Positions 1 through 16,871 of a DNA stretch of 64,000 nt are shown here, piece after piece; position 1 is the stretch's first letter, and every line of letters begins with the position of its first letter. Both the position numbers and the translations under genes were made by a program. The notes beneath the pieces were generated by a model that saw only the letters and a list, made by a program, of their open reading frames with translations, was not told where the DNA came from and did no database searches. Origin of the DNA: Anaerolineales bacterium (lineage in GTDB: Bacteria; Chloroflexota; Anaerolineae; Anaerolineales; UBA11579); NCBI GenBank assembly GCA_016932165.1, contig JAFGDK010000022.1:1-64000 (forward strand). Direction: 5' to 3'.

Positions 1-401
1 ATTTTTTCTATTCAGTAAATTTGGATTGTAGTTACCAACAAGCCCTTGAGAAAGTAACCGAAGCTCTCAAAACAGAAGGGTTTGGTGTCCTTACCAAAAT
101 AGACGTCAAGACTACCCTGAAAGAGAAAATCGGTGAAGATTTTCGACACTACGCGATCCTGGGCGCGTGCAATCCGCCCTTGGCACATAAAGCCCTGGAA
201 AACAACTCAATGCTAGGGCTGGTACTTCCGTGTAACGTGACAGTCGAAGAATCCAAACAGGGGGCAATTGTAAATTTAATCAATCCCAATACAATGCTGC
301 TCTCCATCCCCGGATTTGAGCAGAACCAAACCCTCAAGGAAGTTGCCTCAGAAGCAACCAAAAGATTTAAACGAGTAGCTGATGCTTTAAGGTCTGGCTA
401 G
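1..401 (+). CDS. DUF302 domain protein (5' end cut by window)
   Basis: The frame is open to the window edge, so the true start lies upstream; the TTG at 21 is not needed as a start. The segment after Asp-Cys-Ser-Tyr, with QALEKVTEALKTEGFGVLT, is the N-terminal signature of the small DUF302 family. The C-terminal half, with a PCNV strand and a final amphipathic helix (ATKRFKRVADAL), also fits. DUF302 proteins are about 130 residues, so only a few residues are missing. Function is unknown; members often sit near redox or sulfur genes. Family assignment is from sequence pattern, and no function is inferred. Confidence 0.8.
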   Translation, partial: FFYSVNLDCSYQQALEKVTEALKTEGFGVLTKIDVKTTLKEKIGEDFRHYAILGACNPPLAHKALENNSMLGLVLPCNVTVEESKQGAIVNLINPNTMLLSIPGFEQNQTLKEVASEATKRFKRVADALRSG

Positions 402-421
402 CATCCCACCCATCGGTCATT

Positions 422-427
422 TATAAT
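422..427 (+). promoter_or_regulatory. -10 box TATAAT, predicted leaderless start
   Basis: A perfect TATAAT ends only 7 bases before the ATG at 435. Transcription would start at or next to the start codon, leaving no room for a ribosome binding site, and none is visible. No good -35 box is seen. Confidence 0.45.
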
Positions 428-434
428 ATGCCTG

Positions 435-1247
435 ATGGAGAATAAACCGCTTGGCAAGCTCACCAGAGGAAAAACAACCCGGAACAGACTTCGCCGCGTT
501 GATCTTTTCATCGCCAGGTACGATCCCGGGCTTCTTCGTCAGGCCGATCCTCAAAACAAAAGAAATATCTATTTAGATCTTGGATTTGGGTTTGAGCCCA
601 TCACCACCCTGGAGAGCGCTGCCCGTTTCTCCAAGCTCAATCCACAGCTTTACACCATAGGCGTAGAAATTGATCCCGAGCGGGTAGAGGAAGCGCGTCC
701 GTTTTCCACACCAAATATTGATTTTCGCCACGGTGGATTCAACCTCCCCCTTAAAGCGAATGAATCCGCCCGTCTGATTCGAGCCTTCAACGTTCTTCGA
801 CAATACGATCGCCAAGAGGTGGCTTTCGCTTATCAAACCCTGACGGCATATCTGATTGAAGGTGGCCTCCTGATGGAGGGGACCTCAGACCCTTTCGGCA
901 GGGTTTGGACAGCAAACCTGATTCGCAAGCAAAATCAGCAGCAAACTAGCTATGAAGCAATCACCTTCAGCACTAATTTTCGCCATGGTTTTGAACCTGC
1001 AAACTTTCAGCCCGTTCTCCCTAAAAACCTAATACACCTGATGAAGAATAACAACAGGATCGAAACCTTCTTCAAAGATTGGAAAGCGGCCACATTGGAA
1101 ACGATCGGATACAAACAATTTGGGCTCCGGCAGTGGTTTATCGAGTCTGTCTACCTGCTTTCTCAGCAAGGCTACCAGCTTGATCTAAGGAAAAAGATGC
1201 TAAAATCCGGATTCCTCACTTGGAAGAAACCGGGATTGAATTACTAA
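435..1247 (+). CDS. SAM-dependent methyltransferase-like protein
   Basis: This 270-residue protein has a class I methyltransferase-like core. A motif I-like segment, YLDLGFGFEP (about residues 46-55), is followed about 30 residues later by an acidic strand, GVEIDPERVEEA, which usually holds the SAM ribose. The N-terminus is basic (KLTRGKTTRNRLRR). The substrate cannot be told. No Shine-Dalgarno sequence precedes the ATG, and a -10 box lies 7 bases upstream, so the mRNA may be leaderless. The gene converges on the rhodanese gene, with a hairpin terminator between. The methyltransferase fold is fairly sure; activity is inferred only. Confidence 0.65.
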   Translation: MENKPLGKLTRGKTTRNRLRRVDLFIARYDPGLLRQADPQNKRNIYLDLGFGFEPITTLESAARFSKLNPQLYTIGVEIDPERVEEARPFSTPNIDFRHGGFNLPLKANESARLIRAFNVLRQYDRQEVAFAYQTLTAYLIEGGLLMEGTSDPFGRVWTANLIRKQNQQQTSYEAITFSTNFRHGFEPANFQPVLPKNLIHLMKNNNRIETFFKDWKAATLETIGYKQFGLRQWFIESVYLLSQQGYQLDLRKKMLKSGFLTWKKPGLNY

Positions 1248-1256
1248 CCCCTGATT

Positions 1257-1291
1257 AAAAAATGAAGTCTGCGGAAATTCCACAGACTTCA
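1257..1291 (-). terminator. Intrinsic terminator of the cytochrome-rhodanese operon
   Basis: The inverted repeat TGAAGTCTG (1263-1271) / CAGACTTCA (1283-1291) has two more G-C pairs near a small loop and one mismatch. On the minus strand it is followed by six T (A-run at 1257-1262). It lies just beyond the stop of the rhodanese gene and may also stop plus-strand transcription of the methyltransferase gene. Confidence 0.8.
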
Positions 1292-1313
1292 TATAGTTGC
1301 AAGCTAGACAGGA

Positions 1314-2890
1314 TTACGGAGAAACGTACTCGCCAACCGGGTAACCTTCAGTCGCCCAGGCTCCAAACCCTCCCTTCAAACTACCAACATCTGTGTAACC
1401 ATAAGACCACAAAACAGTTGCAGCAATCGTTGAGCGGTGCCCGCTGCCGCAGTAAACCACAATCTTGGCATCCTTGTTTGGCCAATTAGCTTTCTGAGCA
1501 ATCAACTCTTCCAGCGGAATATTAATCCAGTTCTCGCCTTCGATCACACCATTTTCTTCCAGCTCACTTGTGGTCCGGACATCAATGAGTATCACCTCTG
1601 GTTCCTCAAACAGAGTAGTGTTCAATGCTTCCGCGGTCACCACTCCCCAACCTTCAGGAAGATTGGTCAATACTTCATCAAAGTAAACAACTGTACCCGC
1701 GTCCACTTCAGCTGCATTTAACAGTTCAGCCTCAGGTTCCAGCCCTTGAACAACAGCGTAACCACCCTCCGCCCAACCGGTATAGCTACCACCCTTCAAA
1801 CCTTTCACGTCTTCCCAGCCCATCGCTTCCAGGACAGTCAGGGCGATTGTGCATCGCCAACCGCTGCCGCAGTAAGATACAATCGGGGTATCAAAGCTTG
1901 GGAGATAAGCCAAGTTGTCAGCAAGCTCACGCAGGGGGATTAAAACAGAACCTTCAATATGGCCGCTGCCTTCAACTTCGCTAACATTGCGCACATCCAG
2001 CAGGAACGGCGGATTCTCTACCAATGCAGTGTTGAGTGCGTCCAGACTAATGGTGTTATATCCTTCCATATCAGCCAGGAAGGTTGAAAAAGCAGCATCC
2101 AGGTCAGGTGCGCCGCCTACAGTCGGGTAACCAGCGGTCTTCCATTCGCCAAAACCGCCCTTCAGACTGCCAACATCCGTATAACCATAAGTCCACAGAA
2201 TGGTGGCGGCAATTGTGGAGCGGTGCCCGCTGCCGCAGTAAACAACAATCGGGGCATCTGCAGCTGGCCATTCAGCCTTGCGGTCCACAAATTCCTGCAG
2301 CGGGATATAGACTACCTCAGGAGCATCAACAGCCCCCTGAGATTCAACCTCCTCAGCGGTGCGCACATCGATCAAAACAAGGTCAGGGTTTTCAACCAGG
2401 CTTGTGTTCAGCGCTTCAGCTGTGACCACACCCCAACCCTCGGGGACATACATTTCCAAAACTTCATCAAAGTATGCCGCCACTGCTGGATCAACTTCAA
2501 CGGCGTTCAGCATCTCGGCTTCAGGTTCCAGCCCTTCAACTATCGCATAACCACCGTCTGCCCAACCGCCATAGCTGCCGCCCTTCAAGCCCTTTACATC
2601 TTCCCAGCCCATTGCTTCCAGCATGGTCAGGGCGATCGTGCAGCGCCAGCCGCTGCCGCAATAGGAAACAATCGGGGTGTCAAAGCTGGGCAGGTAAGCC
2701 AGATTGTCAGCCAAGTCACGGAGTGGGATAAGCACAGAACCTTCAATGTGTCCGCTGCCTTCAACTTCGCTAACATTGCGTACATCCAGCAGGAATGGCG
2801 GATTCTCAACCAGAGCGGTGTTCAGTGCATCCAGACCAATCGTGTTGTAGGCTTCCATGTCATCAATAAAGACATCGAACATCACATCGA
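1314..2890 (-). repeat. Tandem duplication of a two-rhodanese unit
   Basis: The coding blocks about 2101-2890 and 1314-2100 encode the same pair of rhodanese domains in the same order. Long stretches are nearly identical at DNA level, for example around the active-site loops at 2640-2810 and 1850-2020, which indicates a fairly recent in-frame duplication. Boundaries are approximate. Confidence 0.8.
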
Positions 2891-3083
2891 GAGCAGCGGT
2901 GTCAAACTCTGCTGGCTCTTCAACTGCTGGCTCCACTTCCGTTTCAGTTTCTTCAACCTGAGTGTTTTCAGTGGTGTTTTGTACCACCACTGCTGGTTCT
3001 TCCACTGCAGCTTCGCCGCCGCAGGCGCTGAGCACGAGTCCCAACAGCATGACGATTGTCATCAACCAGGTAAGCTTTTTCAT
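1314..3083 (-). CDS. Lipoprotein with four rhodanese domains
   Basis: This 589-residue protein starts with a lipoprotein signal (LVLSAC, lipid cysteine about residue 21) and an acidic Glu/Pro/Val linker to about residue 65. Four rhodanese domains follow. Their active-site loops are YCGSGWRCT (about residues 139-147 and 403-411) and YCGSGHRST (about 280-288 and 543-551), each with the catalytic cysteine persulfide site. Domains 1 and 3 are nearly identical and domains 2 and 4 are close, so a two-domain unit of about 260 residues was duplicated. The protein should be anchored outside the cytoplasmic membrane and handle sulfane sulfur (or a selenium analogue, inferred). It follows the multiheme cytochrome gene by 54 bases with no terminator between, so they form an operon. 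Its ribosome binding site is AAAGGAG. Confidence 0.93.
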   Translation of the reverse strand: MKKLTWLMTIVMLLGLVLSACGGEAAVEEPAVVVQNTTENTQVEETETEVEPAVEEPAEFDTAALDVMFDVFIDDMEAYNTIGLDALNTALVENPPFLLDVRNVSEVEGSGHIEGSVLIPLRDLADNLAYLPSFDTPIVSYCGSGWRCTIALTMLEAMGWEDVKGLKGGSYGGWADGGYAIVEGLEPEAEMLNAVEVDPAVAAYFDEVLEMYVPEGWGVVTAEALNTSLVENPDLVLIDVRTAEEVESQGAVDAPEVVYIPLQEFVDRKAEWPAADAPIVVYCGSGHRSTIAATILWTYGYTDVGSLKGGFGEWKTAGYPTVGGAPDLDAAFSTFLADMEGYNTISLDALNTALVENPPFLLDVRNVSEVEGSGHIEGSVLIPLRELADNLAYLPSFDTPIVSYCGSGWRCTIALTVLEAMGWEDVKGLKGGSYTGWAEGGYAVVQGLEPEAELLNAAEVDAGTVVYFDEVLTNLPEGWGVVTAEALNTTLFEEPEVILIDVRTTSELEENGVIEGENWINIPLEELIAQKANWPNKDAKIVVYCGSGHRSTIAATVLWSYGYTDVGSLKGGFGAWATEGYPVGEYVSP

Positions 3084-3137
3084 TCCTTTACTCCTTTTCC
3101 TTTTCTTTGTTGTTATTTGGGGTTCTCTTCAACAGTC

Positions 3138-4559
3138 CTACGGGGTGCCAAAGGGATCAGGCACTTCTTCCACAATGACTGAGAGATTCGCTTCTAATTC
3201 CTCTGGGCTCAGTTTGTCAGCTGTGAGGAAGATATCAGGATTGCCGTGGCAAGCTTCGCAAGATTCAGTCTGCGGAGTATTTAACTGGATATTATGCGGC
3301 GTGGCATATACCCAGGTGGGCAACGCGTCAAACTCTGGCAGTAGATTCTCGCCATAATAGGCGAAGATATCAGGGTCTACAGGTACGTGTCTCAGAACAA
3401 CATACTCTTCTGGCCGGTGGAAGCTTTGCAGCGGATTCCTGCCGATCACAAAGGTTCCATAGGTGCCAGCAGTCTCAAATTTCGGGTTACCGGTTTTATC
3501 ACTGATCGAAACATGGCAGCTGTCACAACTTGTATAGGTTACCGAGTGGCAAACCTGGCACTGCAATTCATCACCATGCTGGTTGTGCATCACATTTCCA
3601 TCTGAGCCGGAGACAGCCTCAGGGTGGCAATCCTTACAGTCCGGGTTTGCCGGTCCGTCATACCGGTGAACCACCTCCACTTCTGGAAGCCCCTGACCGG
3701 TATGGCACTCTTCACAATAACCAGAGGAATTATGCATTTCCATACCGCTATGACAATCTACACAAGCCATTCGACCCTGGCGGAAGTGCAGATCAGCCAA
3801 AACGTCTTCATTCTTGCCCATATACTCATTCCCCACCCGGCTGCCGTGACAGGCAGTACAGTTCCGCGTTAGCGAAGGTGTCTTGTTAAACAAATGTCCC
3901 TCAATGAAACCACCGCCAACAGATGCCGGCTGGCTGATATGGCAATCACCGCAGGTGGTATGGCAGCTGGCGCAGTGGTTCCCAAACATCTCGTCTAACT
4001 CTGGATGATCTTCACTGCCTGCCCGGGCTTCAAGTACAGTCCAGTAGCCCGCCTGAGTTTTGTGCAGGCTGTCTCGGAAATCATCCGTAATCTCTGTATG
4101 GCAGGGACCACAGTAAGCATTGAAATCCTCACTGGGGCGCGCTACCAGTCCCACGTGGGCGATTTCCTTATCTTTTTCTCCCTGCTGACCGCTGTGACAG
4201 GCTGTACAAGGGAGCTGTCCATGCAAGGTTTGACTGAATTCATCTGCCGCGATCAATACTTTTTCCCAAGGCTCCAACGGAGCCACCTCACCACCTCAAC
4301 CCGCGCCTTCGTTTTCTTCTTCCACCTCCACTACTGGGGCAGCAGTATCAATCAGACGTTCCTTGTCTGAGTGACAGGTAGAACACTCGTCAGCCATCTC
4401 AGGTACATCTGTGGGTAGAACCCATTTTGGGCTACTACTGTCAACGGTTTCTTCTGTCGCAGTTTCCATTGGAGCATTTTCAACCGTTATATTTGCACCG
4501 CAACCAGCAAAAACGGTCATCAACACAATTACAGCAAGCAGAACGAAGTTTTTTCTCAT
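3138..4559 (-). CDS. 12-heme cytochrome c lipoprotein, probable selenoprotein (in-frame UGA)
   Basis: Read from ATG 4559 with the TGA at 4298-4296 decoded, this gives a 473-residue protein. It has a lipoprotein signal ending FAGC and one CSTCH heme site before the UGA. After the UGA come eleven more CxxCH motifs: CTACH, CGPCH, CASCH, CGDCH, CTACH, CVDCH, CEECH, CKDCH, CQVCH, CDSCH and CEACH. The frame is unchanged across the UGA. The downstream part alone could only start at a GTG (4286) without any export signal, yet c-type hemes are attached outside the membrane, so separate translation makes no sense. A hairpin with a GUU loop follows the UGA, as in the two hdrA genes. The context is Gly-Ala-Gly-Sec-Gly-Gly. 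AAGGA precedes the ATG. The first gene of an operon with the rhodanese lipoprotein; a role in envelope electron transfer is inferred. The alternative is a nonsense mutation. Confidence 0.75.
4270..4284 (-). other. Candidate bacterial SECIS hairpin (cytochrome)
   Basis: On the minus strand GGCTCC-GTT-GGAGCC forms a perfect 6-bp stem with a three-base loop starting 11 bases after the in-frame TGA (4298-4296). The loop GU lies about 18 bases from the UGA, within the range of bacterial selenocysteine insertion elements. The apex TCC-GTT-GGA equals that of the hairpin in the first hdrA. Confidence 0.65.
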
Positions 4560-4583
4560 AAATCCTTCTTTCTCCAACAAAAC

Positions 4584-4601
4584 TTGTGAGGATAATCACA
4601 A
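4584..4601. promoter_or_regulatory. Rex-like (or CRP/FNR-like) operator TTGTGA-N6-TCACAA
   Basis: TTGTGAGGATAATCACAA is a perfect 6+6 dyad with a 6-base spacer. It lies two bases downstream of the cytochrome -10 box and upstream of the ribosome binding site, so it covers the transcription start, as expected for a repressor. This half-site and spacing fit the NADH-sensing repressor Rex, but TGTGA-N6-TCACA also fits CRP-type regulators. Confidence 0.7.
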
Positions 4602-4603
4602 TT

Positions 4604-4612
4604 AGTATAACA
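4604..4612 (-). promoter_or_regulatory. Extended -10 promoter of the cytochrome operon
   Basis: On the minus strand TGTTATACT reads as an extended -10 element (TGn-TATACT). No matching -35 box is clear at the usual distance. It sits directly beside the TTGTGA dyad. Confidence 0.5.
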
Positions 4613-4720
4613 AATACTTATCAATAAATTTATTTTTTCATTATTCGTTCTACTAACTAACTGCTATAAATTCTGCTTATTTATACATAAATTTATCCGA
4701 ATACATCACTATCCCCTCAA

Positions 4721-4748
4721 TAAAAAAACAGGCCGATCCTGGCCTGTT
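4721..4748 (-). terminator. Intrinsic terminator after the glycosyltransferase gene
   Basis: The stem AACAGGCC (4727-4734) / GGCCTGTT (4741-4748) has a 6-base loop and is followed on the minus strand by a T-run (A-run 4722-4728). It lies 26 bases beyond the glycosyltransferase stop codon. Confidence 0.85.
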
Positions 4749-4773
4749 CAATTGTTCCTGTATGAAAATCCTC

Positions 4774-5976
4774 TTATCTGCTCAACCGATTCCGAAGCTC
4801 GCTGATCCCTTCAGTAAAAGACTCTCGCTCCCAGATCAACCACTTATACCCGCCTCCGGTAATTCCTTTCTCAATCACTTTTCGATAATTTTCCAGCAAT
4901 TCATTCAGTGTGATTTCCCAAGTGCGCATTTCGGCCATCTTGCGCCCCTCCCTGCCGAAAGCGGCGGCCAGGTTTCTATCCTTGATCATCGGAGCAACCG
5001 CTTCAAGAATGCTTTCTTTTTGATTAGGATCATACAACCGCCCATTATAACCATCAATGACCAGGTCTGTCACGCCCCCACTGTTTGGCGCCAGCACCGG
5101 TAAGCCCGACGCCATTGCCTCAACCACCACATTGCCGAAAGTTTCTTTATCCCCGGTGAAGGTAAAAATATCACCAGAAGCATATGCAGCAGCCAGCTCT
5201 TCGCCTTTAAGATAGCCAGTGAATACAGTATCCGTTTCCGAGAACTTCTCTTCCAGATCCGCCCTGGCAGGGCCATCTCCCACAATCGCCAAACGCGCCT
5301 CGGGGTGAGCTTTCATGATCGGAAACAGCCGGTCAATCCTCTTTTCTGGCGAAACACGTCCAATATACAACAGCAAAGGCCGGTCAGGTTGGTTTGCACT
5401 TAAACGCAAGCGCATTTCCTCCGAACGTTTATGCGGTGAATATAGATCAATATCCACGCCCCCCCGCCATATCTCCACACGTTCAAAATTATGTTCGTAT
5501 AGTTGCCGGCGGGTGAATTCCGATGGACATACATTCAGATCAACCCGGTTATGAATCCAGCGAGCATAGCGGTAAATAGATTCAGAGAGGAACCCCAAAT
5601 TCCAGTGCTCGGCAAAACCCGGCACGTCTGTGTGATACGAAGCCAGGACTGGCACCTGATAAAGCTTCGCCACCCGTAGGCCTGCCAGACCAAGCGAAAC
5701 CGGGTTTACCAAATGGATCAGATCAGGTTTAAATTTATTGATTGTCCGGTCGACAAAAGCCCAGGGTGGAGATATGCTCATCTCCGGGTAGAAAGGCACA
5801 CTCATCGAATGGAATGAATACACTTTCGCACCCGCATAATTTTCGGGAGAACCGCTGGGGGCATATACAATTGCTTCGTGCCCATGAGCCTCAAGGTGTT
5901 CCAGCAATCGGCAGACTTTAACGACTATCCCATCAACCTTTGGAAGAAAGGTCTCAGTGAATATGGCTATCCGCAT
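4774..5976 (-). CDS. Glycosyltransferase family 4, SqdX/MgtA-like
   Basis: This 400-residue GT-B glycosyltransferase begins with MRIAIFTETFLPKVDGIV, the N-terminus typical of the SqdX (sulfoquinovosyltransferase) and mannosyl/glucosyl-lipid transferase group. SYHTDVPGFAEHW and HLVNPVSLGLAG continue that resemblance. The C-terminal donor-binding motif KETFGNVVVEAMASGLPV supplies the E(x7)E pair. It probably adds a sugar from a nucleotide donor to a membrane lipid acceptor. It is the second gene after a PAP2-like membrane gene, six bases apart, which supports a lipid role. Without a nearby sqdB homologue the sulfolipid assignment is only one option. Confidence 0.85.
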   Translation of the reverse strand: MRIAIFTETFLPKVDGIVVKVCRLLEHLEAHGHEAIVYAPSGSPENYAGAKVYSFHSMSVPFYPEMSISPPWAFVDRTINKFKPDLIHLVNPVSLGLAGLRVAKLYQVPVLASYHTDVPGFAEHWNLGFLSESIYRYARWIHNRVDLNVCPSEFTRRQLYEHNFERVEIWRGGVDIDLYSPHKRSEEMRLRLSANQPDRPLLLYIGRVSPEKRIDRLFPIMKAHPEARLAIVGDGPARADLEEKFSETDTVFTGYLKGEELAAAYASGDIFTFTGDKETFGNVVVEAMASGLPVLAPNSGGVTDLVIDGYNGRLYDPNQKESILEAVAPMIKDRNLAAAFGREGRKMAEMRTWEITLNELLENYRKVIEKGITGGGYKWLIWERESFTEGISELRNRLSR

Positions 5977-5982
5977 TTTGAC

Positions 5983-6612
5983 TTATGGCCTCCAGACCGC
6001 ATTCAGCACCAACCAAGTGGTCAAGATAAAGGTTGTTCCGGTCAATACACCGGCGATTGTTTGCCAGACAGTATGGCTGTGTGTGCGGATGCGCGCCCAT
6101 GCAACCAATGGTACCATCACCAGCATCGGTGCTAGCGACCACCCCAGAGCGGCAACCATAAACACCGAAAGGCCGGAAATCGCTGTGGCGTGTCCGCTGA
6201 TTTTCCAATACCTGTTAATCACGAACATGAGTGTTGACTGGATCACACCCATCACTGCAAAAGCAGCCAAAAGGAATGGTGCACCCATTACCGCCATCAG
6301 AATCACTCCCAAGAGATTCGTGCCAATGATCACCAGATATGGTTTCGTGCGATTTTCTCTGTTTGGTATGTGAAAATTTTCTATCTTACCTTGCTTCAGG
6401 AGGAGGAGCACATACCCGGTTGGCACCAGGACTACCAACATGACAAACAGAACCGCCCAGCGCCAGGCTTCCTTTGTTCCGATGAACCATGCCATCACCA
6501 AAATCCCCAACGCGGATAACAGAGGTGGGTTTAGAACATTGGAAACCAGTCGGGCAGCCTTATAATCCCAACTCTCCAGATTCTTATCTGCCTTAGTCTC
6601 AAAAGTGTTCAT
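5983..6612 (-). CDS. PAP2-like membrane phosphatase family protein
   Basis: This 209-residue protein has about five to six hydrophobic helices. Pieces of the PAP2/haloperoxidase signature are present: a basic loop KIENFHIPNRENR, then ISGHATAISG with the Ser-Gly-His core, then RIRTHSHTVWQT with the Arg and His. The final acidic residue of the usual H-x3-D pattern is a Gln here, so catalysis may be altered. The family dephosphorylates lipid phosphates at the membrane. It is co-transcribed with the glycosyltransferase that follows six bases later. A hairpin sits just before its ribosome binding site. Confidence 0.75.
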   Translation of the reverse strand: MNTFETKADKNLESWDYKAARLVSNVLNPPLLSALGILVMAWFIGTKEAWRWAVLFVMLVVLVPTGYVLLLLKQGKIENFHIPNRENRTKPYLVIIGTNLLGVILMAVMGAPFLLAAFAVMGVIQSTLMFVINRYWKISGHATAISGLSVFMVAALGWSLAPMLVMVPLVAWARIRTHSHTVWQTIAGVLTGTTFILTTWLVLNAVWRP

Positions 6613-6628
6613 ACATTAAAATCCTCAA

Positions 6629-6649
6629 CCCTCAATAAAACATTGAGGG
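6629..6649. other. Hairpin between the DUF1786 and PAP2 genes
   Basis: CCCTCAAT (6629-6636) / ATTGAGGG (6642-6649) is a perfect 8-bp stem with loop AAAAC. On the minus strand it is followed by GATTTTAAT rather than a strong T-run, and it ends about 17 bases before the PAP2 start. It may be a weak terminator of the DUF1786 unit or a 5' leader hairpin. Confidence 0.45.
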
Positions 6650-6798
6650 CTCATTAATTTTATCACGGAGAGGGCTTCCTATCTGATTTTACCTTTGATT
6701 TATGTAAAATTTTTCATTGGCTATACTTTATACGCGTTGTTTGATATCTACATCAAAAACTTCCAGCCACACCACTGATTGAGAAAGATAAGAGACAA

Positions 6799-7938
6799 TT
6801 AAGGCAGCTCCCAGGGCGGCTTTTCCCTCCCAGAACCCAGCGCAGCTTCAATTTCCTCCTGATAATCAGGGAAATGTATAGCGACCGATTTTACCAGCCC
6901 AAAACACCCGGACATCATCATATCCCCATGAGGTGTAGCGAAATGTGGCCTTAGCCGAGAATGCTGCATCATCCGCCAGCGCGGCCCAGTCACCGATACC
7001 TCAAATTCTGCGTCTTTGTCCCGCTTACCAGCCCTAGAACTTGTCAACGCGCCATGCCCGTGATCGCCAAACACCTCTCTATGGGTTAAGCACCCGTTCC
7101 CTAACCGGGTCAGTAAGCCATCGAGTTTAGCTGTATCCAACATCCCTGTGTGGTGCTCAAATACTCCTCTAATCTCCTCTCTCCACATATGGAAACCAAT
7201 TGTGTGGAAATTTCCGACGTTTGTCACCAGGAATTCATCCGCCTTTGCCACAACTCGGTCCTGCATTGCGCCTAAGACAGCTGCCGGGGCAGTATCCATC
7301 ACAACCAGGGGTAACCCTACCTCTGAAGCGCTGTGTGCCACAGCGGACATACGGGTCATAATCGCCGGGAGTTCGTCCGACAGGTAGGAAAATGCGCTTA
7401 ACAATGGCTTTTCACGAACCCGTTTGGCAATATAGTCAAACCTGAATTGCCTGTCCGAATATCCGGGCGGTGCTGCGCCATGATCAAACACCGCAATCGC
7501 AAGTACATCCAGATCCGCCAAGGAGACCCTAAATTGTTCAAATGCCCGCGCAATCATCTCAAAGTCAAAATCCTTCAAGGTGAGTCGGACCACATCGGAA
7601 GACAAAGTCTTTGCTTCATGTTCACCCGCCAACTGAATCCCAGAGGCTTGAACGATTTCCAAATCATCATTGAATGATTGCGCGGCAGACGGGACCGCAT
7701 ATACTGGAAGTCCAGCTGCCAGGTGCTCCTCAACCGCCCAATGACTCGGACCACCGCCCATTGTCACCCCGCTTAGAAAAATCCCCTTTTTCTGATGAGT
7801 CGCCTCCTTGATCCGTCTGTGAGTGATCATAGTAGGAGAAGGCTGCACCATTTTCAGGTTGTTCTCAACATCTAATTGGGTATCGAACAACAAAATATCT
7901 TGTGTGCCAGTCCCAATATCCACTGCCAATATCTTCAT
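6799..7938 (-). CDS. DUF1786 family protein (ASKHA-like)
   Basis: This 379-residue protein opens with ILAVDIGTGTQDILLFD, a phosphate-binding-1-like loop of the actin/hexokinase/Hsp70 fold. GVTMGGGPSHWAVEEHL, VFDHGAAPPGYSDR and MDTAPAAVLGAM match the DUF1786 family, which is sometimes annotated as pyruvate formate-lyase activating-like without proof. No CxxxCxxC radical SAM motif is present, so that label should not be used. It starts one base after the stop of the upstream lipoprotein gene with AAAGGA before the ATG, so the two are translationally linked. Function is unknown. Confidence 0.8.
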   Translation of the reverse strand: MKILAVDIGTGTQDILLFDTQLDVENNLKMVQPSPTMITHRRIKEATHQKKGIFLSGVTMGGGPSHWAVEEHLAAGLPVYAVPSAAQSFNDDLEIVQASGIQLAGEHEAKTLSSDVVRLTLKDFDFEMIARAFEQFRVSLADLDVLAIAVFDHGAAPPGYSDRQFRFDYIAKRVREKPLLSAFSYLSDELPAIMTRMSAVAHSASEVGLPLVVMDTAPAAVLGAMQDRVVAKADEFLVTNVGNFHTIGFHMWREEIRGVFEHHTGMLDTAKLDGLLTRLGNGCLTHREVFGDHGHGALTSSRAGKRDKDAEFEVSVTGPRWRMMQHSRLRPHFATPHGDMMMSGCFGLVKSVAIHFPDYQEEIEAALGSGREKPPWELP

Positions 7939-7939
7939 T

Positions 7940-8386
7940 TCAGTCCTTTTCGTGGATCACCAAATCCGCTCTAAAAATTCTCACCCTTCCCCCTTCTGCA
8001 TAAAAATCGACTTCAACCCAGTATTCTCCCGGACTCAGATCAACCTCACACATCATTGGCGCTAAATAACTCACCTTTGTCACCCCTCTTACATTTGTTT
8101 CTCGTGACATCAACCGGAACTTGTGGTCAAAGGGATTACAAATCACTTCCTGGCTAAAATCCCCCTTCTTATAAAACTGTATCTCATACCAGATAGTCGT
8201 GCTTTCAATATATTCAATATCCAGATCAGTCCAAAGAGCAATTGACTTTTCAGTGTGTATAAACTCAAACTCATAATGACCGATATTTTGAATTGACACC
8301 CGGGCAATCTCAGAACCACACCCTGGTAGCAGAATAATGATAATCGCAACGAATGGCAATAAAACAATCAAATTCTTACGCCTCAT
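7940..8386 (-). CDS. Small lipoprotein, unknown function
   Basis: This 148-residue protein has a basic N-terminus, a hydrophobic core and a lipobox-like LLPGC, giving a lipid-anchored mature part of about 125 residues. The mature part is rich in beta-strand pattern and contains two cysteines that could form a disulfide. GGGAAGGTGA precedes the ATG. I do not recognise the family. It is the first gene of a two-gene unit with the DUF1786 gene. Confidence 0.7.
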   Translation of the reverse strand: MRRKNLIVLLPFVAIIIILLPGCGSEIARVSIQNIGHYEFEFIHTEKSIALWTDLDIEYIESTTIWYEIQFYKKGDFSQEVICNPFDHKFRLMSRETNVRGVTKVSYLAPMMCEVDLSPGEYWVEVDFYAEGGRVRIFRADLVIHEKD

Positions 8387-8521
8387 GATTCACCTTCCCT
8401 GCTCTTGTTCCCTTCCCCGCCTTGCGGTAGTCGATTTCCAGGAGTCCCATTCCCGATTTTACCAAACATTCGATGGTATCATTTACCCAGGCTCATCCAA
8501 TAAACATTTTCAGGAGAGATA

Positions 8522-9700
8522 ATGATCAACAGAATTATCCTGATCGTACTTGACAGTGTGGGGATTGGAGAAGCCCCTGATGCTGCTGAGTACGGGGACA
8601 CAGGTTCCAATACATTAGGAAACATTGCAGCCGCCGTAGGCGGACTTCAGCTGCCCAACCTCCAACGCATGGGACTGGGGAATATCGCCCCAATTGAAGG
8701 CATCTTGCCTCATCAACACCCATCGGCTGCATTCGGCAAAATGGCCGAGGTCTCCCCCGGCAAAGACACCACTACTGGTCATTGGGAGCTTATGGGCATT
8801 CATCTCAAACAACCTTTCCCACTCTACCCTGAGGGTTTCCCACATGAGGTAATGGAAACCTATCAAGCCCAAACTGGCCGTGGATGGCTGGGGAATTATC
8901 CTGCATCTGGCACCGAAATTATCAAGGAATTGGGCCAGGAACACATAGAAACCGGCAAGACGATCGTCTACACCTCAGGAGACAGCGTTTTTCAAATCGC
9001 CGCTCATGATGAGATTATTCCCCTCCCAGAGCTATACGATATCTGTAAGATAGCAAGAAACATTCTCTCAGGAGAACACGAAGTCAGCCGCGTGATTGCC
9101 CGTCCCTTCATCGGAGAACCAGGTAATTTCGTTCGGACAGCCAATCGAAAAGATTTCTCGGTGGTTCCGCCCGAACCCACCTTACTGGACAATCTTAAAG
9201 AAGCTGGTTTTATGACGCATGCGGTCGGCAAAATAGAGGATATTTTTAATAAGGTAGGGATCACCTCGGCCGTACATACCAAGGACAATATGGATGGGGT
9301 TGAAAAAACCATCGAAGCGATGCTAAATTTGACCCAAAAAGGCCTGATCTTCACCAATCTCGTCGATTTTGACGCCAAGTTCGGTCATCGCAATAATCCT
9401 CAGGGCTATGCCCAGGCATTGGTTGAATTCGATCAGTGTCTTCCAGATATTCTAAAAACACTTAGAAATGATGACCTGCTGGTAATCACCGCAGATCATG
9501 GCAACGATCCCACGACTCCCAGTACAGACCACTCTCGTGAATATGTGCCTATTCTCCTATCTGGAGAACAGATAAAACCAGGCGCAGATATCGGTATCCG
9601 TCAAACCTTTGCCGATCTCGCTGCCACAATTGCAGACATTTTGGAGGTAACTCCTCCCCCTAAGGGCTTAAGCTTTAAGCATAAAATCCTGGGAATCTAA
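8522..9700 (+). CDS. deoB: Phosphopentomutase
   Basis: This 392-residue protein matches the alkaline-phosphatase-superfamily phosphopentomutase over its full length. It has the N-terminal metal site [18 protein letters not shown] with TGSNTLGN, then [15 protein letters not shown] with the phosphorylated Thr region. [26 protein letters not shown] and the C-terminal [22 protein letters not shown] metal ligands follow. The enzyme interconverts ribose/deoxyribose 1- and 5-phosphates in nucleoside salvage. AGGAGAG precedes the ATG. The gene stands alone and its stop overlaps the stop of the convergent gene by four bases. Confidence 0.97.
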
Positions 9701-10629
9701 GGCTGTTGTAGATAAACACAACGGAATCCGACACCGCTGCTGAAAACTTCAGGAAAATTAGCTGTCCGGTTTGTTGCCCGTCCCCCTGAAAGCAGATTCT
9801 TCCAGGATCCACCCCGCGCCACTTTCATCTCGCCTTCAACCGGTCCAGTTGGGTTCTCTTCCGGTGAATTAGCATAATAATCCGTACTATACCAATCTGC
9901 CACCCACTCGGCAGCATTCCCAGCTAAATCCAAAACGCCATAGCTGCTGGCCCCGGAAGGAAAACTTCCTACATCCAGGGTCAACCCCTCCGTACAGCCC
10001 CTTAAGTTTGCATGCCCGCACTCAATCATATTTCCCCATGGGAATACTCTTTCATCACTACCCCTGGCTGCTTTTTCCCATTGTGCTTCAGTTGGCAATA
10101 AACCGCCAACAAAGCGGCAGTATGCATCCGCCTGATACCAGCTAACAAACACTACCGGGTGGTTATCAAAGATAGGATTACTGTAAAACTCTTGAATAGC
10201 TGGAGGTACACATTTTCCGGCGGCCACGCACAGCCGGTATTCCGAATTCGTCACCTCAAACTGTCCAATCCAGAACTCATCCAGGTACACTGAATGCACC
10301 GGTCCCTCATCCCTGAAATCTGCCAACTCGCAACCCGATCTACTTTTTTCGCAGATCTCCAGACCTACTACAGCATCAGCTCCCATCAAAAAACTGCCTT
10401 CCTGCACCAAAACCACCCTTGCATCATCATTCTCTGTTATCTGTTGAGTATCACCAACTGGCAGATTAATTTCCGGTATTTCTTCGACATTTGTTACTGC
10501 CACACTAATCAGAGGCGATGGAGTGAGTTTTTCCACCTCGAAAGTCAGCGCCTCCCTGCCTTCATCGCACCCAGTAAACCACATTCCAAATAGGAATAGT
10601 GCTATAAACCATTTATTACCAAATTTCAT
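9697..10629 (-). CDS. SUMF1/FGE-sulfatase-domain lipoprotein
   Basis: Starting at ATG 10629, this is about 310 residues with a signal ending FTGC, a lipoprotein anchor. The longer frame to 10671 would add 14 residues ahead of the signal and is less likely. The domain (about residue 70 to the end) shows the formylglycine-generating-enzyme fold: [63 protein letters not shown] and GFRCV. Most members outside true FGE are not sulfatase activators but binding or protein-kinase-linked proteins. Its role outside the membrane is unknown. It converges on deoB with overlapping stops and no terminator between. Confidence 0.85.
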
Positions 10630-10740
10630 TTCACAAAAGTTATACCACGGCAAGCGCTGAATTACCCACAAAGAAATATAAGCACACTAAATTGCCCGTC
10701 TGCCACATAAAAAATCCGTCCTTGCCCTCACCTTTCAACT

Positions 10741-10758
10741 TTGTGATTTTATCCACTA
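10741..10758. promoter_or_regulatory. Operator-like site 1 (TTGTGA-N6-CCACTA)
   Basis: TTGTGATTTTATCCACTA matches the left half of a TTGTGA-N6-TCACAA operator perfectly and the right half in four of six bases. Together with the next site it forms a larger mirror-symmetric array in which TTGTGA, ATCCAC, GTGGAT and TCACAA are evenly spaced. Confidence 0.55.
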
Positions 10759-10760
10759 TT

Positions 10761-10778
10761 TTGTGGATTTTTTCACAA
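10761..10778. promoter_or_regulatory. Operator-like site 2 (TTGTGG-N6-TCACAA), hdr promoter
   Basis: TTGTGGATTTTTTCACAA differs by one base from the TTGTGA-N6-TCACAA dyad found at the cytochrome promoter. It ends eight bases before the -10 box, so it covers the -35 region and would block RNA polymerase when occupied. Rex or a CRP/FNR-type regulator is the likely ligand. Confidence 0.65.
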
Positions 10779-10785
10779 TATATGC

Positions 10786-10791
10786 TATAAT
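10786..10791 (+). promoter_or_regulatory. -10 box TATAAT of the hdr operon
   Basis: A perfect TATAAT follows the operator pair. The best -35 candidates (GTGGAT, 17-base spacing, or TTGTGG, 19-base spacing) lie inside operator 2. Confidence 0.6.
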
Positions 10792-10932
10792 GAAAAAATT
10801 ATATCTGTATTCCAAAATTGCCAGTTCAAGCCAGCCCCATTGCAAAACGTGCCTAGCAAACTAAAGAAATTAATATGTACGCATATCAACGGCACAACTT
10901 CAAACCATCACCGCTCAGATAAGTCCAAATCG

Positions 10933-10991
10933 GGGTAGTGCTGCGCTCCCTAAGTTCGAGCACAAATCAATTCTGATATCCACACTACCCC
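10933..10991 (+). other. Long-range stem in the hdr leader RNA
   Basis: GGGGTAGTG (10933-10941) pairs perfectly with CACTACCCC (10983-10991), enclosing 41 bases. An inner alternative is GTGCT/AGCAC. The stem ends a few bases before the ribosome binding site. No T-run follows, so it is not a terminator. Confidence 0.5.
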
Positions 10992-11011
10992 ACTGTCGAA
11001 AGGATCATACT

Positions 11012-13021
11012 ATGGTCGAAACAGGCAGCAACGGGCATAGCAGCCAGCCACCCAGAATCGGTGTGTATGTCTGCCAGTGCGGCACCAACATTGCGGGGAC
11101 AGTAGATGTAGAGAAAGTCACCGCCCATGCAAGTCGACTCCCAAACGTCACCATCGCAAAAACCTATACCTACATGTGTTCCGATCCAGGTCAAGCATTG
11201 ATTAAACAGGATATTCAGGAACATGGCCTCAACCGGATTGTCGTTGCTTCCTGTTCCCCGCTAATGCACGAATCAACTTTTCGAGCAGCCTGTTTAGAAG
11301 CAGGATTAAATCCCTACCTTTTCCAGATGACCAATATACGCGAGCATGTGGCTTGGGTCCATACGAACCAACCCGAATTAGCCACCCGCAAAGCAATCGA
11401 TCTGGTTAGCGCGGCTGTTGAGAGAGTGGCTGGCCACCAACCAATTGAACCTCGTTACTCGGATGTGACCCAATCTGCACTCGTGGTTGGTGCCGGTATC
11501 GCCGGGATCGAAGCTGCCTTGCGCATTGCGAATTCAGGCAAGCATGTTTACCTGGTCGAAAAAGAGTTGGGGATCGGCGGGCACATGACCCAGATATATA
11601 AAACCTTCCCCACGCTCGATTGCGCGGCTTGAATTCTCACCCCCAAAACGGTGTCCGTTGGACGCCACAAAAACATCACCCTCCTGACCTACGCAGAAGT
11701 TGAGGATGTCTCAGGCGTAGTTGGTGATTTCAAGGTCATTGTGCGCAAGAAAGCCCGTTATGTTAACGAAGAGCTTTGCAATGGCTGCGGCACTTGCGTT
11801 GAGAAGTGCCCCTGGAAGAAAATCCCCGATGAATTTGAATTGGGTCTCGGCTACCGAACTGCCATCCACTTCCAGTATCCGCAAGCGGTGCCGAAGATTC
11901 CGCGCATTGATGCTGAAAATTGTGTCTACTTTAAGAATGGAAAATGCAAAGCCTGCGAGAAATTCTGTCTGCGCGGAGCGATAGACTTTGAACAGCAAGA
12001 CGAATTTGTCGAGTTCGAGGTCGGCACTATCATCCTCGCCACCGGTTTTAAAAATTTCAATCCAGAAAAAACCCCAAAATACGGTTACAAAAAGCTGGAA
12101 AACGTGCTCACTGGCCTTGAATTTGAGCGTATGGTCAATTCCGGTGGGCCGACAACCGGTCGCGTTCGACTCGCTGATGGCTCAATACCCGGGAAAATCG
12201 CCATTATCCATTGCGTCGGCAGCCGCGGAGACCACAACGAATATTGCTCCCGAGTGTGCTGCATGTACTCTCTCAAACTTGCCCACCTGGCTAAAGAACT
12301 CATCGGGGCAGATATCATTGAATATTACAGGGATATGCGTACTTTTGGAAAAGACTATGAGAATTTTTACGAGAGGGTCCGAGAAGAGGATATTGCCTTC
12401 GTGCGTTATGAAGATATCCGGGTTTCAGAAGACCAAGAAGGATTGGTCGTCACCACAACTGACCTATACAATGGAGATATTATCTCCAACCATGTAGACA
12501 TGGTGATCCTCAGTACCGGCATGGAGCCCCAAGAAGACCAACAAAAGATCGCCAGCACCTTCGGCATCTCTCTCAGCCCTGACGGATTCTTTTTAGAGAA
12601 GCACCCCAAGCTGGCCCCAGTTGAAACCGCAACGGATGGTGTCTTCCTCGCTGGCACTTGCCAGGGACCCAAGGATATTCCCGATACAGTCGCGCAAGGT
12701 GGCGCTGCTGCTGCCTCTGCCCTATCGTTGATGGATTATGGACGCGTTGTGCTGGAACCATTTACTGCTTCCATCGATCCAGAGAAATGTAGCGGCTGCC
12801 TGATCTGTGTGGACACCTGTCCATTCGGTGCAATCGACACCACTATACACAATGGGCGCACTATCTCGCAGGTTAATGAAATCATCTGTAAAGGATGCGG
12901 TACTTGTGTGGCAGCTTGTCCGTCCGGCGCTGCATCCCAGTTAGGGTTCACAAATCACCAGATTTTCTCCGAGATCGACGGAATTCTACGGCAATCCAGC
13001 CTAATGGAGTTGACCATATGA
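11012..13021 (+). CDS. hdrA: HdrA-like bifurcating flavoprotein, selenoprotein
   Basis: With the TGA at 11630-11632 read as selenocysteine (residue 207) this is a 669-residue HdrA of normal family length. The N-terminal domain is IGVYVCQCGTNIAG; the FAD site is VVGAGIAGIEAAL. TLDCAA-Sec-ILTPK corresponds to the family motif DCxxCILTPK, so Sec replaces the second Cys. Cluster motifs follow: CNGCGTCVEKCP, CVYFKNGKCKACEKFC, and two C-terminal ferredoxin sites CSGCLICVDTCP and CKGCGTCVAACP. HdrA carries the bifurcating flavin in HdrABC/MvhD complexes and splits electron pairs between ferredoxin and a high-potential acceptor in the cytosol. It is the first gene of a six-gene operon, and its stop overlaps the next start as ATGA. 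Confidence 0.93.
11650..11666 (+). other. Candidate SECIS hairpin in the first hdrA
   Basis: GGTGTCC-GTT-GGACGCC forms a 7-bp stem (one G-U pair) with a GTT loop, starting 17 bases after the TGA. The loop GU lies about 25 bases from the UGA. The sequence also codes for the conserved Val-Ser-Val-Gly-Arg stretch, so part of its conservation may be protein-driven. Confidence 0.75.
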
Positions 13022-16000
13022 ACAGATCTAAACCAAGAATTGGCGCATATATCTGCCGTTGCGGCACCAATATCGCAGCTACAGTTGATGTGGAGGAAGT
13101 AGCTAAAAAGATTGGCTTCCTCCCCGGTGTGGTCATTGCCCGAGACTACACCTACATGTGCTCTGACCCAGGCCAAAATCTCATCAAGTCCGATATCAAA
13201 GAACACAACCTAAACCGGATAGTAGTGGCCTCTTGCTCCCCCTTGATGCATGAGGCCACTTTCCGGCATGCAATAGAAGAAGCCGGCCTCAACCCCTTCT
13301 ACTTCCAGATGGCGAATATCCGTGAACAATGCTCCTGGGTGATTAAAGATAAAGCGCTGGCAACAGAAAAGGCGATTAAGATGACCACCGCTGCCGTTCA
13401 GCGGATCAGGTACCACCGTCCTGAGAAGATGCGCCCGATTGACATTACTCCCGCAGTATTAGTGATTGGAGGCGGCATTGCTGGAATCGAAGCATCCCTC
13501 AAAATTGCCGACGCGGGTAAACAGGTCTACCTGGTGGAGCGCGAATCTTCAATCGGTGGGCACATGGCCCAACTGTACAAAACATTTCCCACTTTAGACT
13601 GTTCGGCTTGAATACTCACACCCAAAATGGTGTCCGTGGGACGCCACGAAAACATCGAACTCCTCACCCTGAGTGAAATTGAAGAATTGAGCGGTTATGT
13701 AGGGAACTTCAAAGCCACTATCCGCCAAAAAGCCCGTTACGTTCAAGAAGATATGTGCACCGGTTGTGAGGCATGCACACAGGTCTGCCCCATTGAGGTG
13801 CTGAACCCCTTTGAACTCGGCTTGGCCATGCGCCATGCCACCTACCGCAATTCCGCCCAGTCCACTCCGAATGCGTTTGCCATCCAAAAAACAGGCATTG
13901 CTCCATGTCGGGATGCATGCCCAGCAGATCAAAGGGCCATGGGTTATATCAGTCTCGTGAAGAAGCACAGGTTCGCAGATGCCTACTGGACGATTCGCAG
14001 GGAAAATCCCTTCCCATCGGTTTGTGGTCGGGTGTGCAACCATGTTTGCGAAGACGCTTGCAGCCGCGGCGAGTATGACGAACCAGTGAATATTGTCGCT
14101 ATCAAACGTTTCGTCGCCGATTGGGCCTACCAACATCGGGATGAATTGGATCAGATGCCTGATAAATCCATTCCTGGCACACCGTTTATCCACAAACACC
14201 AACCAACAGGGAAAAAGGTCGCCATTATCGGATCCGGTCCGGCAGGCCTCACCGCCGCCCTCGACCTGGTCAGACTCGGCCACAAACCAGTCGTTTATGA
14301 ACAATTCTCAGAACCAGGCGGGATGATGCGCGTTGGAATCCCCCCACACCGCCTCCCTTATGACCGTTTAGCCTGGGAGATCGACCTGATTCGCCGCGAG
14401 GGGGTCGAAATTCACCTCAATCATCGCGTTAGCAATGCCCCCGGCCTGCTCAACAAAGGCTTTGACGCTGTTCTGATCGCTGCAGGTGTCCATAACGCGG
14501 TCAAACTTCCTATTGATAATTCCGATCACCCCGGGAATTGGCTCTCAACTGAATTTTTACGCAAGGTGCTGCTTGGAGAACGGATCGATCTCTCCGGCCG
14601 TCATGTTATTGTCTTGGGAGCTGGGGATGTTGCCCTGGATGTTGCCCGCACCGCCATCCGTCTCGGCCAGCCAAAAGTTCAAATCTTATGTCGAGGAATG
14701 CGGTGTTCTGAACATGAGCTCAAAGCAGCCGAAGAAGAAGGTGTGCGAATTCTCTCCAGCCGGGTCTTTAAAAAGGTAGTCACCGCGGATGAAAAAATCA
14801 TTGGCATTCGCTGCCTGGATGCTGAGGTTGGCGGGATAGTAGATGGCCGCCGCATTGTACGCGAAAAACCCGGTACAGAACATTTGGTAGAAGGTGATCT
14901 GATCATCTGGGCATTAGGCCAAAAAGGAGATTATGACTTCCTACCAGAGGAAACGCCTATTGTTTCCCAAAATCCAACTGGAATCCAGACAAACAACGAG
15001 ATGATGACCAACATTGACGGCGTGTTCGTCGCTGGTGATATCCGCCAGGGCTGGACCAGTTTCGTTGTAAACGCCATTGATGAAGGCCACCACGCTGCCA
15101 GAGCAATCGATCGTTATCTAAACGCAGGGGCCGGCATACCAGAGCCATCTCATGGTATGCCTGTTGCCAAATTGACACGCGAAGAAATTGAACTAAAGAT
15201 CACCGCTGGAAGGGCGTCAAATCAACCCAGGATTAAAATCTCCTCCATTCCGCCGGAGGAACGGATCAACAACTTTAAGGAAGTAGATCTCACGCTAACC
15301 GAGGATCAGGTAGTCGCAGAAGCCTCTCGCTGCCTTGAGTGTGGTGTATGTGGGGAATGCATGGAGTGTGTTGCTGCCTGCGAAAAGGGGGCCATTGATC
15401 ACACCATGCGGGATCGAATCATAGACGTCAATATCGGAGCAGTTATCGTGACCACCGGTTTCAAGGACTTTGATCCTCGGATTGCCCCCGAATATGGATA
15501 CCAATACCCCAATGTTATTACCGCGCTAGAGTTTGAGCGGATGATTAATCCCAGCGGACCCACTGGCGGCAAGGTGGTCATGAAAAATGGGAGGCGCCCA
15601 AGAAAAGTAGCCATCATCCATTGTGTTGGCAGCCGAGATGATAAATATCATCAATACTGTTCCCGGGCATGCTGCATGTATTCACTCAAAACCGCCCAGC
15701 TGGTTCATGAATATGTTGAAGCTGAAGTTCATGAAATTTACCGGGACATGCGTACTTTTGGCAAAGGTTACGAAGAATTTTTCAATCGCACCAAGCAGGA
15801 GGGAGTACATTTCCATCATGGGCGGGTAAAAAGTATCACCCGTGAGGAAGGGTACCTCCACGTCTCCTGGGATGAGGCATTCTTCCAGCAACCCGATCAT
15901 GTTGATGTGGACATGGTTATTCTCGCCACGGGCATGGAGCCCCAGCAAGATGCCGCCCGCCTGGCCGCTACCCTCGGAATCAGTCGCAGCAACGATGGCT

Positions 16001-16395
16001 TCTTCCTTGAACTTCACCCCAAACTCGGCCCTGTGGAAACCAGGTCTGAGGGTATCTTCCTTGCAGGCGCTTGTCAAAGTCCCAAGGACATCCCTGATAC
16101 AGTTGCCCAAGCAGGAGGAGCAGCTGCGGCAGCTCTGTCACTGATCGACCAGGGTACGGTGAAGTTAGATCCCGCTATTGCACAGGTCCAGGAAGCTCTG
16201 TGTGCTGGTTGTGGACAATGCGCAACGGTCTGCCCCTATGGCGCCATCTGGATTGAAAACGGCATCGCCCACATCGATGAATATAATTGCAAAGGATGTG
16301 GAACCTGTGCCGCCACCTGCCCCAACAAGGCAATGACGCTAATCCACTTTGATGATAAACAATTGATCTCCGAGTTGGTTGGTGCACTCAGTTAG
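13018..16395 (+). CDS. HdrA with inserted GltD/NfnB-like domain, selenoprotein
   Basis: From ATG 13018 and with the TGA at 13609-13611 read as Sec198, this is a 1125-residue protein, almost twice HdrA length. The HdrA N-half has IGAYICRCGTNI, the FAD site VIGGGIAGIEASL and TLDCSA-Sec-ILTPKM. After CTGCEACTQVCP an insertion begins near residue 290. It has the GltD-type cluster ligands CRDACPADQ and CGRVCNHVCEDAC, a second FAD site IIGSGPAGLTAAL (about 400) and an NAD(P) site VLGAGDVALDVA (about 530). The HdrA fold resumes near residue 770 with CLECGVCGECMECVAAC and ends with CAGCGQCATVCP and CKGCGTCAATCP. The insert suggests a direct NAD(P)H entry or exit, as in NfnB and glutamate synthase small subunits. 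It overlaps the preceding stop (ATGA), so the two are translationally coupled. Confidence 0.92.
13628..13646 (+). other. Candidate SECIS hairpin in the second hdrA
   Basis: T-GGTGTCC-GTG-GGACGCC-A gives an 8-bp stem with a GTG loop starting 16 bases after the TGA at 13609-13611. Stem sequence and position match the hairpin in the first hdrA. Confidence 0.75.
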
Positions 16396-16403
16396 GAGGG
16401 AGT

Positions 16404-16871
16404 ATGTTTGAACCCAAGATCATCGCATTCTTGTGTACCTGGTGCAGCTATACTGGCGCCGACCTCGCTGGGACAACTCGCTTGAAATCCCCCTGGAATA
16501 TCCGCGCCATCCGCACGCCATGCTCCGGAAGAGTCTCCCCTGAGCTAATCATCCGCGCTTTCGATGAAGGAGCAGATGGAGTGCTGGTGCTTGGCTGCCA
16601 TATCGGTGAATGTCATTTCGATACTGGGAATCACCGCACGGCAAAACGTATTCCTATCTTGAAAGAGCTGCTCTCCTTTGTTGGACTGGAACCTGAACGC
16701 CTTCGTCTGGATTGGGTTTCAGCATCAGAGGGCGAGCGCTTTGCACACATCACTAACGATTTCACTGAAACCATCCGCCAATTAGGTCCCTGTCAATGGC
16801 AGCAAAAGCCGTCCTGGCGGCAGACCCGCCCAGAACTCGCTGTCATCACAGAATTGGAGGCCGCCGAATGA
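16404..16871 (+). CDS. mvhD: MvhD/FlxD-like iron-sulfur subunit
   Basis: This 155-residue protein matches the delta subunit of methyl-viologen-reducing hydrogenase. FLCTWCSYTGADLAG, TPCSGRV and GCHIGECHFDTGN hold the five cysteines that bind the [2Fe-2S] cluster. In MvhAGD and FlxABCD complexes this subunit passes electrons between a hydrogenase or an NADH-oxidising module and HdrA. Strong RBS GGAGGGAG. Here no hydrogenase genes are present, so the electron donor is more likely the reductase encoded at 18696-19541. The stop overlaps the next start. Confidence 0.94.
   Translation: MFEPKIIAFLCTWCSYTGADLAGTTRLKSPWNIRAIRTPCSGRVSPELIIRAFDEGADGVLVLGCHIGECHFDTGNHRTAKRIPILKELLSFVGLEPERLRLDWVSASEGERFAHITNDFTETIRQLGPCQWQQKPSWRQTRPELAVITELEAAE

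Follow-up and report, generated by a model that had tools for sequence, protein, structure and literature searches.

The window (the whole stretch of 64,000 nucleotides analysed, from contig JAFGDK010000022.1 of an Anaerolineales bacterium) carries on its minus strand a predicted selenoprotein gene of the multiheme c-type cytochrome kind, followed downstream by a gene for a lipoprotein with rhodanese domains. The main features, with selenocysteine abbreviated as Sec or U, are as follows:

3138..4559, minus strand: predicted selenoprotein gene encoding a multiheme c-type cytochrome (473 aa once TGA is taken as Sec, 12 CxxCH motifs, lipoprotein signal)
4500..4559, minus strand: lipoprotein signal peptide with lipobox Cys20 (TVFAGC), read from the translation
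4371..4385, minus strand: heme site 1 (CSTCH, residues 59-63), the sole heme site 5' of the UGA
4296..4298, minus strand: in-frame UGA, codon 88, predicted Sec in GAG-U-GG (UGA in 69/70 family members)
4270..4284, minus strand: putative SECIS hairpin GGCTCC-GTT-GGAGCC, beginning 11 nt past the UGA, with frozen codons and compensatory changes
3138..4295, minus strand: part translated solely via UGA readthrough, with eleven heme sites and without an export signal of its own
1314..3083, minus strand: downstream partner, a lipoprotein with four rhodanese domains (PF00581, four stretches)

The cytochrome frame opens with an ATG at 4559, is interrupted once, by the TGA at 4298-4296, and then stays open to a stop at 3138. 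An earlier note on this DNA had described the UGA as parting a signal and one heme site from eleven further heme sites that lack an export signal, and both statements hold in the translation. The perfect hairpin that it placed 11 bases past the UGA is found at 4284-4270, and its GAG-Sec-GG context without a CxxU pair is likewise seen in the window protein, where neither UxxC nor a nearby Cys occurs around residue 88. The one CxxCH before codon 88 and the 11 after it give the 12 hemes originally counted, with the correction that 11, not 12, are conserved family-wide. With several CxxCH motifs and an export signal, the product has the attributes of a multiheme c-type cytochrome, and its lipobox Cys20 is nearly invariant in alignment A1. 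The putative Sec lies among glycines, 25 residues past the heme-1 His and 30 ahead of the first Cys of heme 2. The window protein scores above threshold with PF14522, which is matched in 14/14 members; a sequence search of the PDB returned weak multiheme matches alone (best E 0.1), and the structures predicted from 14 homologues, once at full length and once with the signal peptides removed, were unusable (pLDDT 41 and 42).

Two tandem hdrA genes lie on the plus strand of the same window (11012-13021 and about 13006-16440), and both contain a TGA in frame (at 11630 and 13609, respectively) at a position where HdrA has Cys (FPTLDC-A/S-A-U-ILTPK). They are two genes of Sec-HdrA, a known selenoprotein family, and the Cys/UGA swap is the classic Sec exchange. 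In the second hdrA, a region resembling NAD(P)/FAD oxidoreductases seems to be inserted.

The UGA codon and its hairpin across homologues

A first scan of GTDB species genomes yielded 13 relatives of the cytochrome (twelve Chloroflexota records and one Syntrophaceae, with 43-73% identity in the best segment), all 13 of which have TGA at the codon-88 column. Application of a profile built from these relatives to sampled Chloroflexota (400) and Desulfobacterota (395) genomes identified the family in 12/400 vs. 48/395 genomes, respectively. The earlier note had suggested looking for homologues in other Anaerolineae; the family is not confined there and is commoner in the Desulfobacterota sample. 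No relatives were found in viral contigs. UGA occupies the column in every full-length Chloroflexota match and in the Desulfobacterota matches read, with the exception of one Tyr fusion. A joint 70-member alignment, from which two partial matches are excluded (L068, truncated where its contig stops, and the fragment L113), gives UGA in 69/70 members (68 rows read directly and L050, which is trimmed in the alignment and has the UGA in its sequence). Extra copies in three genomes (G429, G773, G474), known from the search table alone, have one internal TGA each. The check proposed in the earlier note, whether this column is Cys or UGA in homologues, thereby has a clear outcome: Cys, Trp, TAA or TAG occur in 0/70 members, although distant Cys forms may escape a search that sampled the phyla and scored few candidates per genome. 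Cys-containing homologues, which are usual for selenoproteins but not required, are accordingly absent among the 70 members, and the residues flanking Sec are usually G-x-G-U-G/A-G. The single non-UGA member (L067) is a diverged, long-branch sequence with Tyr at the column and is nevertheless fused to a rhodanese; therefore, Sec may be dispensable in some branches.

The hairpin (a perfect stem with the loop GTT, whose G is invariant in alignment A2) has frozen codons. The codons for A93, P94, L95 and E96 (GCT-CCG-TTG-GAG) are identical in 14/14 relatives, whereas outside the hairpin 0/34 invariant 4- or 6-fold-degenerate positions keep one codon in the same 14 sequences. In a more varied set of 35 sequences, pairing in the stem amounts to 91%, both sides change in 5/8 pairs, and the covariation score is 0.277, as compared with 0.023-0.128 for slid versions; 0/500 shuffles reach this score. 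The clearest compensatory change, seen in several relatives, is an exchange of arms, from GGCTCC...GGAGCC to GGAGCC...GGCTCC, which also alters the protein (from AP-LEP to EP-LAP), so that the amino-acid sequence yields to the RNA. A second Desulfobacterota subfamily has a different stem (CCGCC-loop-GGCGG), 94% paired and with almost no covariation, the sequences having too little variation. No gathering-level Rfam match was obtained in positions 1-16000 of the window. Judged on these sequence patterns, the hairpin makes a convincing bacterial SECIS candidate, and the retention of both the UGA column and the hairpin in ~70 homologues argues that the UGA is not there by chance.

The translation apparatus points in the same direction. 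The source genome carries SelA, SelB and a tRNA-Sec with the anticodon UCA, that is, the Sec machinery whose lack had been named in advance as fatal to the proposal. SelA is found in 12/12 Chloroflexota carriers of the family, which is weak evidence alone because 321/400 (80%) of the sampled genomes of this phylum have it, and in 44/48 Desulfobacterota carriers, the remaining four of which have SelB and tRNA-Sec. Overall, the machinery is present, at least in part, in every family-bearing genome checked. None of the outcomes listed in the earlier note as refuting was encountered.

Two explanations that dispense with Sec have to be weighed against this evidence. In one of them, the UGA is a genuine stop that closes a short one-heme lipoprotein, and translational coupling starts a second cytochrome from a GTG just downstream; indeed, a GAGG stretch followed by a GTG lies a few bases past the UGA in the window and in many Chloroflexota copies. 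This restart codon is, however, absent in L033, L060-L065 and L070-L073 (L062 excepted), the reading frame is kept throughout, the hairpin covaries, and neither TAA nor TAG replaces the UGA in any of ~70 genes, though these two stops end 32/52 long open reading frames of the window. Moreover, attachment of c-type heme needs export, and the downstream part has no signal for it. We consider such a gene pair highly improbable. Even less credence is given to a UGA that is read as another residue, arose by sequencing error or marks a pseudogene. An additional TAA in one relative (L032) does suggest that single broken copies may exist; nevertheless, an identical UGA recurs in dozens of independent assemblies, UGA ends 20/52 long open reading frames of the window and is thus a normal stop, a UCA tRNA-Sec is present together with SelA and SelB, and the neighbouring hdrA genes have UGA where HdrA has Cys.

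The selenoprotein that was at the outset merely possible is now very likely, in view of the UGA in 69/70 members, the SelA/SelB/tRNA-Sec set and the covarying hairpin, and codon 88 almost certainly specifies Sec insertion. SelB and tRNA-Sec would decode the UGA as directed by the hairpin just 3' of it, and the readthrough product would be one exported lipoprotein with 12 hemes.

The rhodanese partner and a possible role of the selenocysteine

A feature overlooked in the earlier note is the rhodanese beside the cytochrome. In the window, the partner gene is an open frame without an in-frame UGA, and its product scores 126 bits against NF041203 (rhodanese-related (seleno)protein; cut-off 115). 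Across the family, a rhodanese gene or domain adjoins the cytochrome at 69/74 loci (65 within 2.6 kb downstream, 4 upstream), and the five loci without one in the scan include L013, where the scan was centred on a different cytochrome although a rhodanese is present, as well as L056 and L111, which end within 300 bases. At one locus (L089), the cytochrome is fused to two rhodanese domains in a single protein. The cytochrome family and the adjacent extracytoplasmic rhodanese thus very probably constitute a functional pair, and with comparable assurance we take the best overall explanation of the locus to be a Sec-decoded 12-heme lipoprotein cytochrome working with this rhodanese.

Several further observations concern the arrangement of these loci. 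The only clear fusion with a C-terminal rhodanese is the Sec-less (Tyr) member itself (L067 / L089), the genome of which retains SelA. The rhodanese domains of L034 / L078 and L069 directly precede the cytochrome, possibly in one frame with UGA readthrough. In 14/34 loci surveyed, a gene belonging to one and the same cluster lies near the cytochrome; the example scanned (L004 8450-9445) encodes a LysR-type regulator and might thereby point to the signal controlling the operon.

Eleven CxxCH motifs and nine further His are invariant over the 70 alignment rows (heme 1 being cut off only in the truncated L050), whereas in the 14 closest sequences the invariant free His number eleven for the eleven conserved hemes, a number consistent with bis-His ligation throughout these hemes, Sec being left free. 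In the proposed mechanism, the rhodanese would supply or accept a sulfane-sulfur (or selenium) group. The Sec selenol, on the Gly-rich stretch that links hemes 1 and 2, would receive or attack what the rhodanese handles, be it a sulfane-sulfur, a polysulfide or a selenium-oxyanion species. The Sec would form and break a chalcogen bond, and the bis-His heme chain would carry electrons to or from this species. An extracytoplasmic chalcogen oxidoreductase of this type, with Sec as the chemical site, hemes as the wire and a substrate suggested by gene context, is a plausible, if tentative, assignment for the cytochrome. Somewhat more speculative is its extension to an obligate-Sec multiheme family in which Sec is the active site of a respiratory chalcogen oxidoreductase outside the cytoplasm, served by a dedicated rhodanese and with eleven hemes as its wiring.

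Alternatively, the protein could be a true selenoprotein in which Sec is not the chemical site but takes part in folding or, unusually, ligates a heme. In favour of this, the Sec lies between hemes 1 and 2 with no Cys or Sec partner, and nine invariant free His for eleven hemes would leave up to two hemes without a universally conserved His ligand. Yet in the 14 closest sequences, with eleven invariant free His for eleven conserved hemes, no heme need be short of a His ligand and Sec is still retained, and the Gly-rich flanks suggest a mobile loop, making a ligand or folding role rather improbable.

If the obligate-Sec reading is true, selenium chemistry would be coupled directly to multiheme electron transfer in both Desulfobacterota and Chloroflexota. 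Since standard annotation splits or truncates selenoproteins, a conserved, perhaps respiratory, cytochrome of this kind would look like two unrelated fragments.

Comparison with known selenocytochromes and related families

The closest precedent is ExtKL of Geobacteraceae (GSU2937-GSU2936; NF040886), a multiheme selenocytochrome predicted in 2007, at which time its SECIS was not identified, with five hemes in its N-terminal part (PMC1914089) and described in that year as having no non-Sec homologues (PMC1914089, PMC5877670). The ext cluster is linked to selenite and tellurite and includes the rhodanese ExtH (PMC5877670). Like ExtKL, the present family combines a multiheme c-type cytochrome, one in-frame UGA, no CxxU, a rhodanese in the cluster and no Cys form found; unlike ExtKL, it has one heme before the Sec, ten or eleven after it and a clear hairpin, and the five-heme N-terminal layout does not occur. 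NF040886 (cut-off 250 bits) gave no match at family loci in 26 genomes and none to the window protein at E<=1. One Desulfobacterota genome (L114, G676) has both a true ExtKL (with one internal TGA) and a member of the cytochrome family at separate places, and is apt for comparison.

This resemblance raises the prospect that the cytochrome is an Ext-like reductase of selenite/tellurite (or metal), acting on selenium oxyanions and not on sulfur. ExtKL is itself a selenocytochrome clustered with a rhodanese (ExtH), and selenite and tellurite are reduced less when ExtI, a porin of that cluster, is lost (PMC5877670); in addition, family members weakly resemble ExtM/ExtN, and one rhodanese part resembles ExtH, at scores below cut-off. 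These similarities are, however, far below curated cut-offs, NF040886 does not reach the family genes, and a non-exhaustive scan of the surveyed loci recognised neither a porin nor further Ext genes. A reductase of the Ext type therefore seems unlikely, though it deserves more weight than a ligand or folding role for Sec.

Other known families are more remote. TIGR04315 (tetrathionate reductase family octaheme cytochrome) is also multiheme and c-type, with one GenBank-annotated Sec form (PMC13188914), but the top score in our family, that of L069, is 30.6 bits where the cut-off stands at 375, and the window protein has no match at E<=1. TIGR03508 (DmsE-type decaheme) scores far below its cut-off as well, and none of the NCBIfam cytochrome models exceeds its cut-off for the 11 members tested. 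The cytochrome c7/c3-type models PF14522 and PF14537 detect heme-packing motifs above Pfam thresholds in the family, but they are generic, cover part of the protein and have their best matches outside the Sec linker. Selenoproteins are also found among rhodaneses (NF041203; PMC13188914), whereas here the Sec is in the cytochrome and not in the four-domain rhodanese partner.

A 2026 inventory of 119 prokaryotic selenoprotein families includes ExtKL and one octaheme form (PMC13188914). The present family was not recognised there, nor was it found in NCBIfam or Pfam, although a family missing from the inventory and from NCBIfam may still have been seen by others; a literature search, with most subscription papers outside its scope, found no description of it as a selenoprotein. 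The earlier claim that no multiheme cytochrome of this type had been described thus stands for the family, which is apparently an unlisted selenoprotein family, but not for the kind, which was known from ExtKL and others. Separated from ExtKL by its profile and absent from the inventory and NCBIfam, it counts as a new family within a known kind, and the rhodanese theme recurs in it. Overall, it would provide a second, widespread example beside ExtKL, the one selenocytochrome followed experimentally, with the rhodanese pairing repeated, and it opens to direct testing the question of what role a selenocysteine plays beside a heme chain.
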